Origin: Cellulomonas shaoxiangyii
GTDB lineage: Bacteria; Actinomycetota; Actinomycetes; Actinomycetales; Cellulomonadaceae
Assembly (NCBI RefSeq): GCF_004798685.1
Contig: NZ_CP039291.1
Location: forward strand, 1,488,001-1,552,000
Reading direction: 5' to 3'
Length of the DNA: 64,000 nucleotides
Position 1 is the stretch's first letter. Each line of letters begins with the position of its first letter. The notes beneath the pieces were generated by a model that saw only the letters and a list, made by a program, of their open reading frames with translations, ran no database searches and was not told where the DNA came from. The position numbers and the translations under genes were made by a program. Shown here piece after piece: positions 38,444-57,365 of the stretch.

Positions 38444-39223
38444 ATGTCCACGGTCGCCGCGAGCTCGTCGCGAGGGGTCTGGGAGGCCGGCGCCCGCGCC
38501 GGGTACGCCGTCAGCGGTGTGCTGCACGTGCTGATCGGTGTGCTCGCCGTCCAGCTGGCCGTCGGGGACGGCAGCGGCAGCGCGGACCAGTCCGGCGCGT
38601 TCGCGCAGGTGGCCTCGACGCCGTTCGGGGCCGTCGCGCTGTGGGTGGCCGTCGTCGCGTTCGCCGCGCTCGGTGCCTGGCAGGCGGCGGCCGCGCTGAG
38701 CGGGGTCGTCGGCGAGGCGGCGGACCGCGCCAAGGCGGCCGGGAAGGCGGTGGTCTACCTGGCGCTCGCGGTCACCGCGCTCACCTTCGCCCGCGGCGGC
38801 GGTTCCGGGGGCGGGCAGACGTCGGACGCGACCGCGACCCTGCTGCAGGCGCCCGCCGGTCGGCTGCTGGTCGGCGCGGTCGGCGTCGGGGTCCTGGCGG
38901 TCGGTGCCTACCACGTGCACAAGGGCGTCACGAAGCGGTTCCTCGACGACCTGCAGCGGCTGCCCGCGGGGCGGCCCGGACGCGCCGCCCGCTGGTCGGG
39001 GGTCGTGGGGTACGTCGCCAAGGGCGTCGCGCTCGGCGTGCTCGGGGTGCTGTTCGTCCTGGCGGCGGTCCACGCGGACCCGTCGGAGGCGACCGGGCTC
39101 GACGGGGCGCTGCGCACCCTGCGCGAGGCGCCCGCGGGGCCGTTCCTGCTGCTGCTCGTCGCTCTGGGGCTCATCGCCTACGGCCTCTACAGCTTCGTGC
39201 GGGCGCGCTTCGGCAGGCTCTGA
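38444..39223 (+). CDS. DUF1206 membrane protein
   Basis: A 259-residue protein made of three repeats of a two-helix unit, each with a G-Y-x-(x)-G/H motif: ARAGYAVSGVLHVLIG, GKAVVYLALAVTALTFA and VGYVAKGVALGVLGVLF. About six membrane segments. This is the DUF1206 family of actinobacteria, function unknown. GAGGAGG precedes the ATG. The next gene's c-di-GMP riboswitch begins about 80 bases downstream. Confidence 0.82.
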   Translation: MSTVAASSSRGVWEAGARAGYAVSGVLHVLIGVLAVQLAVGDGSGSADQSGAFAQVASTPFGAVALWVAVVAFAALGAWQAAAALSGVVGEAADRAKAAGKAVVYLALAVTALTFARGGGSGGGQTSDATATLLQAPAGRLLVGAVGVGVLAVGAYHVHKGVTKRFLDDLQRLPAGRPGRAARWSGVVGYVAKGVALGVLGVLFVLAAVHADPSEATGLDGALRTLREAPAGPFLLLLVALGLIAYGLYSFVRARFGRL

Positions 39224-39265
39224 CTTTTCACCCGCGCCGGACGTATGTCCGACCCCCGGTGGTTC

Positions 39266-39294
39266 TTGCACGGATGTCCAGATTGGGGCATGCT
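39266..39294 (+). promoter_or_regulatory. Candidate promoter for the riboswitch-bldC transcript
   Basis: TTGCAC (39266-39271), a 17-base spacer, then CATGCT (39289-39294). It would place transcription at about 39301, just before the riboswitch. The -10 is weak. Confidence 0.4.
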
Positions 39295-39302
39295 CATCCA
39301 CG

Positions 39303-39383
39303 TCAGCGAAAAACGGCAAACCCACCGCAAGGCGGGGACGCAAAGCCACGGGGCCCACGAGGCCAGCCGAGCTGCCGAACGAC
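39303..39383 (+). ncRNA. c-di-GMP-I (GEMM) riboswitch upstream of bldC
   Basis: The core matches GEMM-I: GGCAAACC, a hairpin CACCGCAAGGCG with a GCAA tetraloop, GGGACGCAAAGCC, then the second stem GGGGCC-CACGA-GGCC and the CCGAGCTGCC receptor side. The RNA ends just before the AAGGAG ribosome site of the bldC-type gene, with no terminator in between, so control of translation start is more likely than termination. c-di-GMP binding is known for this class; here it is inferred from sequence. Confidence 0.88.
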
Positions 39384-39397
39384 CAAGGAGTCCAGTC

Positions 39398-39622
39398 ATG
39401 GCCACTCAGACGCACACCACCAACGCCCCCCTCTCGCAGGGCGCTCTCCTCACGCCGGGTGAGGTCGCGGTCCTCTTCCGCGTCGACCCGAAGACGGTCA
39501 CGCGTTGGGCGCAGGCCGGCAAGCTGTCGGCCGTCCGCACCCTCGGCGGTCACCGTCGCTTCCACGAGGCGGAGGTCCGCCAGCTCCTGACGGGCGTGCC
39601 GCAGCAGCGCACGGGCGAGTGA
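39398..39622 (+). CDS. bldC: BldC-type MerR-like transcription factor
   Basis: A 74-residue protein: polar N-terminus, then LTPGEVAVLFRVDPKTVTRWAQAGKLSAVRTLGGHRRFHEAEVRQLL, the winged-helix DNA-binding domain of BldC. In Streptomyces BldC is a small developmental regulator that binds DNA in head-to-tail arrays. AAGGAG precedes the ATG and follows a c-di-GMP riboswitch, so its translation may answer to c-di-GMP. A strong terminator follows at 39655. Excisionase-like proteins share the fold, but this gene is clearly in host DNA. Confidence 0.88.
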   Translation: MATQTHTTNAPLSQGALLTPGEVAVLFRVDPKTVTRWAQAGKLSAVRTLGGHRRFHEAEVRQLLTGVPQQRTGE

Positions 39623-39654
39623 GCCCGCCGCCTTCGGGCGGCACGCACGACGCC

Positions 39655-39693
39655 GACGACGCCGGTGGTGACCAGGTCACCACCGGCGTCGTC
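39655..39693 (+). terminator. Terminator after bldC
   Basis: Nineteen-base arms GACGACGCCGGTGGTGACC (39655-39673) and its complement (39675-39693) meet around one base, effectively a long stem with a tiny loop. No T run follows, as is common in high-GC bacteria. Confidence 0.82.
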
Positions 39694-39814
39694 GTGTCCG
39701 GGGCCGTCCGTGCCCGAGCGGCGCGGCTCACCGGCCGCCGCACGTGGCCGGCGGCACGTCGTCGCGGCGGTGCGCGGGGCACCCCCACGCCCGGCGACGT
39801 GAAAGGATCGGGGC

Positions 39815-56648: not shown

Positions 56649-56972
56649 ATGACCGATCGCGCCGACCGCGGGACCACCTGGAACTTCTCGCAGAACAACC
56701 CGCTCGGGCCGGGCCAGGACGACGTGCCGGCCCTCCTGCGCCGGGTCGCCAGCTCGATCGAGCGGTTGGGACGGGTCGACGTGCAGGACGTCGTCTTCCA
56801 CGAGGAACTGTCGGACGACGGCACGCCGTGGCCGTCCCTGAGGGTGTACTACCACCCGGCGGGGTCCGCATCGGTGCGGTCGCCGCTGCGACGTGGTGCG
56901 AGCCGCGCGCACGGTGCGCGCCGGCGGCGCGGCGTCCGGCGCGGGCGGGGCGGCGCCCCGAAGGGCGGATGA
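56649..56972 (+). CDS. Conserved hypothetical protein, 107 aa
   Basis: The first ~75 residues (TTWNFSQNNPLGPGQDDVPALLRRVASSIERLG, then VVFHEELSDDGTPWPSLRVYYH) resemble a small conserved actinobacterial protein. The rest is an Arg-rich tail with different composition, which may be an out-of-frame extension. GACACT ends six bases before the ATG, suggesting a leaderless start. Its 3' end overlaps rnpB by eight bases. Confidence 0.6.
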   Translation: MTDRADRGTTWNFSQNNPLGPGQDDVPALLRRVASSIERLGRVDVQDVVFHEELSDDGTPWPSLRVYYHPAGSASVRSPLRRGASRAHGARRRRGVRRGRGGAPKGG

Positions 56973-57365
56973 GTCAGCCGATACGCCGGGTTCTGTCCCC
57001 GCGCGCGGTTGCCCCCGCGCGGGTGACGGCCATCCATCTACGACGTACGTTGCCGCACGCCTCCAGCGGCCTACCCGGGAGCTCGGGCGGGCAGCCCTCG
57101 GACGCTCCCTGTCTGGCCTTGCTCCGGGTGGGGTTTACCTAGCCGCACCGGTCGCCCGGCACGCTGGTGGTCTCTTGCACCACCGTTTCACCCTTACCCC
57201 GCACGTCCGGCGGACCGGTCGCACGTGGCGGTCTGTTCTCTGTGGCACTGTCCCGCGGGTCACCCCGGGTGGGCGTTACCCACCACCCTGCCCTACGGAG
57301 CCCGGACGTTCCTCGGCGGCCCCTCCGAGGAGGGACCGACGCGGCCGCCTGGCTGACTCATCCGC
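56965..57365 (-). ncRNA. rnpB: RNase P RNA (class A)
   Basis: About 401 bases. The ends pair: GCGGATGAGTCAGCC at the 5' end with the complementary 3' end. Conserved core segments are visible on the transcript: GAGGAACGTCCGGGCTCC, CAGTGCCACAGAGAACAGACC and the 3' ACAGAACCCGGCGTATCGG. It cleaves the 5' leader from tRNA precursors together with RnpA. The ends were set from the terminal P1 helix. Confidence 0.95.

Follow-up and report, generated by a model that had tools for sequence, protein, structure and literature searches.

The question raised by this locus is what a c-di-GMP-I riboswitch aptamer does directly in front of a gene for a small regulator of the BldC family. In the window, by which we mean the whole stretch of 64,000 nucleotides from Cellulomonas shaoxiangyii that was analyzed, a scan with all Rfam models matched the c-di-GMP-I (GEMM-I) model RF01051 at positions 39305-39379 of the forward strand, over the entire model (1-87) and with 53.3 bits (E 1.3e-7) against a curated cut-off of 35 bits. 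The aptamer ends 18 nt upstream of the ATG of an ORF for a 74-aa BldC-family protein (39398-39622, forward strand), which scored 100.4 bits (E 3.4e-29) against NF033787, HTH_BldC, the curated cut-off of which is 77. These two matches bear out the original prediction that a GEMM-I core lies just before the ribosome site of a 74-aa BldC homologue. Because the sensor is located directly in front of the regulator gene, c-di-GMP probably controls this regulator through RNA. The explanation that we consider the best overall, and hold with considerable confidence, combines a riboswitch in the leader, a Shine-Dalgarno sequence (SD) adjoining its P1 helix, a duplicated bldC gene, and an output altered by c-di-GMP. 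In this explanation, positions 39302-39400 would represent the 5' leader of an mRNA, made up almost wholly of the riboswitch and with the BldC-family gene as its first gene; c-di-GMP binding would stabilize P1 beside the ribosome site, the stabilized helix would change the output of the BldC paralogue at the translational level, and the paralogue, which probably arose from a bldC duplication within the Cellulomonas/Actinotalea lineage, would hand the c-di-GMP signal on to its target genes.

Regarding the regulator, the window protein falls into HTH_17/MerR in Pfam, with the HTH at residues 17-65 as a single winged-HTH without an effector domain. Its nearest matches in the PDB were 6amk and 6ama, which we take to be BldC of S. 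coelicolor, and its top named relatives, as well as those of the small protein encoded behind the second aptamer of the same genome, were from Cellulomonas. It had been introduced as a sister regulator of BldD; since BldC is MerR-like and BldD presumably belongs to a different protein family, this description holds only for Bld naming. In S. coelicolor BldC, Lys26, Arg30, and His46 are reported as DNA contacts (PMC5859096), and the equivalents of these residues, compared by eye, are kept in the window protein. Members of the BldC family bind direct repeats of DNA as head-to-tail multimers.

The genome of the window contains three BldC-like frames, namely, that of the window, one at 641,482 (L181) that is 71% identical and has no aptamer in an Rfam scan, and a weak third. 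BldC was found at E 1e-12 or better in 28 of 30 chosen genomes; an aptamer-less BldC is present in all 18 chosen genomes from genera without RF01051 (G023 has three BldC-like frames), and is also kept in 7 of the 7 riboswitch-bldC genomes examined (G000, G005, G013, G030, G066, G099, and G107). For a tree, 111 distinct proteins were reduced to 98 by removing L134, which is truncated at the edge of its locus, and 12 proteins whose cores were identical; with S. coelicolor BldC added, this gave 99 sequences with 59 columns, from which the degenerate L040 protein is absent. L068, L152, and L188 were labeled as riboswitch-linked by hand (an aptamer was seen at L068, and L188, at the same place as L152, has an Rfam match), and the riboswitch-less rows were taken from the 30 chosen genomes and the window's own genome and are not a random draw. 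All 68 riboswitch-linked rows were separated from S. coelicolor BldC and L181 by a single branch (support 88/68, 90% of bootstrap trees), in an alignment of 59 columns with an unsettled bootstrap. These two limits make the evidence for one bldC duplication, followed by riboswitch control, moderate. The predicted BldC homologue stands as a member of the family, but the tree and L181 suggest a probable lineage-specific paralogue, with a BldC that lacks the riboswitch elsewhere in the same genome. Two kinds of irregular copies were also observed: at L040 (near 1500, reverse strand), the BldC encoded behind the aptamer lacks HTH residues that are otherwise conserved and appears to be degenerate, and at L068 (Cellulomonas uda) and L226 (G144), a frame change is present in a run of C near the bldC start, which may be a sequencing error or real.

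The arrangement of the window is conserved. RF01051 occurs in 51 of 150 sampled genomes of the family, in 7 of 25 genera. An exact pattern that combines the core of the aptamer and the recognition helix of BldC matched 49 sites in 45 of the 150 genomes and 5 of the 25 genera, while the reversed pattern used as a control matched none; when the sites were read, 48 of the 49 showed an in-frame BldC together with the aptamer arm, and the remaining one, in G144, showed the aptamer and the frame change near the gene start. The pair was missed by the exact pattern in five further genomes (G001, G026, G047, G107, and G030), which brings the total to 50 of the 150 genomes, from 6 of the 25 genera, one of the genomes being frame-changed. 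The sole RF01051 genome in which no pair was found, G022, is in approximately 200 contigs and 90% complete. A GTDB-wide scan with one genome per species returned 77 stretches, 67 of which are real pairs (66 with an in-frame ORF and the frame-changed L068) from Cellulomonas, Actinotalea, MAGs labeled Micrococcales or Actinomycetales, and one record labeled Cellulosimicrobium; the other 10 (Chloroflexi, Halomonas, Mycobacterium, and others) were rejected as chance matches with no aptamer arm or no BldC frame. A relaxed pattern in 394 genomes of the class gave one match, in the window's own genome, against two for its reversed form, and thus no signal outside the family; since exact patterns miss diverged pairs, this does not prove absence elsewhere.

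Upstream of the aptamer, TTGCAC (39266-39271) and CATGCT (39289-39294), separated by a 17-nt spacer, form a putative promoter (39266-39294, forward strand), from which the transcript would start near 39301-39303, namely, at P1 itself. Of 85 leaders, 60 have the corresponding motif TTGNNN-N17-YANNNT no more than 70 nt upstream, against a mean of 1.34 in mononucleotide shuffles; the leaders are related and not independent. TTGCAC/CATGCT is too weak for a stricter consensus scan, which detected no promoters in the window. The diverged riboswitch-bldC copies L038, L040, L042, L120, and L126 have no match to this motif; a sigma-28-like promoter, CTCAAG-N14/16-NNCGAT, was observed upstream of their aptamers (5 of 85 leaders against 0.025 expected from mononucleotide shuffles). 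The window locus is flanked by a DUF1206 gene upstream and a peptide deformylase gene downstream, both on the same strand, and 36 of 72 loci have neither flanking-gene motif, a comparison that is weak because some loci are not long enough. Elsewhere in the window, a bacterial RNase P class A RNA was found at 56966-57360 on the reverse strand (276 bits).

Of the 85 leaders collected, 63 non-redundant ones were aligned, and covariation was found in P1, P2, and P3. Among the bases assigned to these helices, 95.1% of cells were paired, compared with 90.5% in shuffled alignments and at most 41% when slid, and nine pairs were changed on both sides, against 5.0 in shuffles, none of 500 shuffles being as high; because the leaders are related, these shuffle counts are not probabilities. 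In the window, the 5' strand of P1 (39302-39308) consists of GUC at 39302-39304 and CG at 39307-39308, which were placed by hand against 39381-39383 and 39376-39377, respectively, in the 3' strand (39376-39383); the outer helix covaries. The three outer pairs are GC in 56 leaders, UA in 6, and AU in 1; UA in 55, UG in 6, and unpaired in 2; and CG in 57 and GC in 6; the fourth pair, at the outer end, is weak and unpaired in 14 of 50 cells. Alignment and covariation also delimit the P2 hairpin at 39321-39336, with a GCAA tetraloop at 39327-39330 that is of the GNRA type in 63 of 63 leaders, and the P3 hairpin, which carries the tetraloop receptor, at 39344-39373. RNAalifold, unaided, recovered P2, the larger part of P3, and the outer helix of P1, and missed the inner two pairs of P1. 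The window aptamer has an A.C mismatch in P2 (39324/39333), seen in 2 of the 63 leader rows, and a C.A pair in P3 (39347/39370), at a position unpaired in 37 of the 63 leaders; it is among the weaker scorers in the RF01051 matches listed for the genomes of the family.

When the SD was defined as the best AGGAG-like 5-mer from the last base of P1 to 12 nt beyond, P1 ended 0-2 nt upstream of it in 57 of the 63 leaders; in the window, the gap to AGGAG (39386-39390) is 2 nt. A pattern scan found no terminator-like site on the forward strand in 39200-39800, in agreement with the prediction that no terminator separates RNA and gene. The lack of a terminator and the ribosome site adjoining P1 suggest that control is likely translational; a phylogenetic study of riboswitches describes a tendency of Actinomycetota towards translational riboswitches (PMC12452182). 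When the 63 leaders were folded with ViennaRNA, the mean unpaired probability of the SD was 0.442 in the free leader and 0.388 with the aptamer forced, which cost 7.1 kcal/mol on average in the model; a change of more than 0.05 occurred upward in 15 leaders and downward in 28. The computed accessibility of the SD shifts without a consistent direction, and the folding therefore shows no clean SD switch. Inspection by eye revealed no conserved anti-SD, and RNAalifold gave no competing helix in leaders that extend up to the start codon. Sequestration of the SD by a conserved anti-SD was rejected on this absence of a competing helix and the lack of a consistent direction on folding. A CTCTCCT stretch was noticed by eye in the coding region of the window. 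The prediction that the switch acts on translation is the more probable one, but the computed accessibility of the SD gives no clear on or off.

The other c-di-GMP-I aptamers of the family provide a wider view of this arrangement. We compared 61 non-bldC aptamers from 75 loci taken out of the 159 RF01051 matches in the family genomes, plus three further loci, identical ones being counted once. The chosen start codon, sought at 50-67 nt past the core, was at 55-61 nt in 59 of the 61, and in a wider search based on an SD score (35-350 nt), most of the same loci had a start at 55-64 nt. By eye, a purine-rich ribosome site seems to overlap the 3' strand of P1 in several of these leaders. Sorted by hand, their targets comprise 40 members of a small-protein family, 12 long ORFs, and 9 short ORFs mostly before an ORF of approximately 137 aa; this sorting moved L174 and L178, and L008 has a 111-aa ORF in place of that of approximately 137 aa. 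The small proteins (43-66 aa) are encoded directly behind the aptamers, show motifs like MDQRG... and PPQVLARWAA..., often end in P.Q, and had no Pfam match in the two that were scanned. One of them, with 48 aa, starts behind the second aptamer of the window's own genome (L001:1339-1482, reverse strand, near 3,706,000 of G000:C1), and a word-based search found six relatives of it among 5.8 billion proteins.

When five long ORFs starting near an aptamer and the 124-aa ORF of L161 were scanned, DUF4214 was found in two (L006 and L029), PKD in one (L149), and nothing in three, including L155 and L159, which had no Pfam match. At L006, L029, L149, L155, L159, L171, L172, and L176, we observed long ORFs with a GTG start directly behind the aptamers and with N termini that are signal-like by eye. 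At L141, L143, L148, L160, L174, L175, and L178, the aptamer is followed by an ORF of 27-43 aa, possibly a leader ORF, and, approximately 250-300 nt further on, by an ORF of approximately 132-138 aa whose N terminus is signal-like. At L147 (1027-2101, forward strand), an aptamer and a small ORF precede a protein with sigma-70 regions 2, 3, and 4, which may be FliA/WhiG-like.

As for the direction of control, we lean slightly to repression at high c-di-GMP. The leading alternative, less probable but one that we take seriously, is an ON switch, in which the 3' strand of P1 and the SD would pair elsewhere in the ligand-free leader, and c-di-GMP would lock the aptamer, free the ribosome site, and raise the paralogue. 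The 15 leaders with a more accessible SD fit this alternative, as does the increase in the mean accessibility of the AUG from 0.537 to 0.613 on forcing the aptamer, and the similar position of the start codon before the long ORFs with DUF4214 (two of the five scanned) and PKD (one of the five) points the same way, since such proteins might be expected to rise with c-di-GMP. Nevertheless, the SD goes the opposite way in the 28 other leaders mentioned above, and RNAalifold, given leaders up to the start codon, shows no competing helix. Action of the RNA on transcript stability or on Rho-dependent termination, and not directly on ribosome binding, is unlikely. It would suit a leader in which neither an anti-SD nor an intrinsic terminator was found, and Vc1 of V. 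cholerae is also without both and its mechanism was reported as unclear (PMC4744006); however, the similar distance from aptamer to start codon over unrelated targets fits a translational platform.

The bases that would contact the ligand are G20, A47, and C92 in the Vc2 numbering. Located by hand from the alignment, they are present in the window at 39315, 39342, and 39375, and across the leaders they are kept in 61, 63, and 62 of 63, respectively, and jointly in 60, the window included. Single leaders carry substitutions at these positions, namely, G20 to A in L110, G20 to C in L173, and C92 to U in L089, which may represent a ligand change or decay; G20A and C92U mutants are mentioned in PMC7288161. 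The own genome has six GGDEF matches above the cut-off, and c-di-GMP is therefore plausible as a messenger in it; it has no match to Flagellin_N, and motility is therefore not an obvious output here. That the aptamer senses another cyclic dinucleotide is very improbable: its clan does include separately modeled variants, and RF03167 (c-di-GMP-I-GGC) was the best-scoring family for 13 of 20 related aptamers compared in a competition of Rfam families, and the three substitutions above occur, but the joint conservation of G20, A47, and C92 is the c-di-GMP pattern. More improbable still is a chance neighbor or a decayed aptamer without function on the bldC-type gene, which the two mismatched pairs and the 53.3 bits against 64.8 for the other copy in the genome might suggest, but which we rejected in view of the pair in 50 of 150 genomes, the reversed control with 0 in 150, the 49 sites read, the covariation, and the near-invariant contact bases.

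The survey for GEMM-bldC pairs and the covariation of the helices have both turned out in favor of the original prediction. The aptamer class is known, and the BldC-family target is apparently new and conserved across the lineage. A pairing of BldC, riboswitch, and c-di-GMP was not found in the literature searched, mostly without subscription papers, and an earlier mention, for example in a supplement, is possible; titles and the beginnings of abstracts on BldC with riboswitches and on c-di-GMP riboswitches in Cellulomonas contained nothing on the pairing, and a GEMM riboswitch with an excisionase was likewise absent from the literature searched. Going further, we consider it an evenly balanced proposition that, in an ancestor of Cellulomonas, Actinotalea, and their allies, a c-di-GMP-I riboswitch took control of a duplicated bldC, which now heads a c-di-GMP riboswitch regulon, comprising the BldC paralogue, the 43-66 aa proteins, and long surface-type proteins, on one minimal translational platform with P1 abutting the SD, as an RNA-based counterpart of c-di-GMP-BldD control. 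In actinobacteria other than Streptomyces, such a system would connect c-di-GMP with a Bld-type regulator through RNA in place of binding by a protein. With one leader, one small regulator, and one ligand, it offers a simple and testable circuit; the conserved spacing from P1 to the ribosome site offers a minimal riboswitch platform for on/off logic, and the target set across the family is a list of candidate c-di-GMP-controlled genes.

Compared with known systems, the RNA is like GEMM-I riboswitches in matching the whole RF01051 model and in its core, GNRA tetraloop, and contact bases, whereas its target is of the BldC family, its leader contains little besides the aptamer, its P1 ends at the SD, and no terminator was found and no anti-SD seen. 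With c-di-GMP-I-GGC it shares the clan; formally, the window aptamer belongs to RF01051, and on the overlapping RF03167 it scores 51.8 bits, below the cut-off of 59, which many relatives pass. Many related aptamers, L001, L040, L126, L153, L188, and L217 among them, score best with RF03167, and RNAs of this kind may therefore already underlie that family. A likeness is also seen to Vc2-tfoY and Vc1-gbpA of V. cholerae, where tfoY is presumably a regulator under Vc2. These class I switches act in opposite directions and without control of transcription termination (PMC6366702), and Vc1 has no apparent anti-SD in a leader of 225 nt (PMC4744006); they differ from the window in lineage and targets. 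The protein resembles Streptomyces BldC (NF033787, 6amk/6ama) as a small single winged-HTH with the three DNA-contacting residues kept by eye (PMC5859096), but it is a probable paralogue that coexists with a riboswitch-less BldC in the genomes examined. With c-di-GMP-BldD control in Streptomyces, the locus shares the messenger and a Bld-type regulator; there, according to PMC5859096, it is the protein BldD that binds c-di-GMP, whereas here RNA would do so, acting on a regulator from another family.
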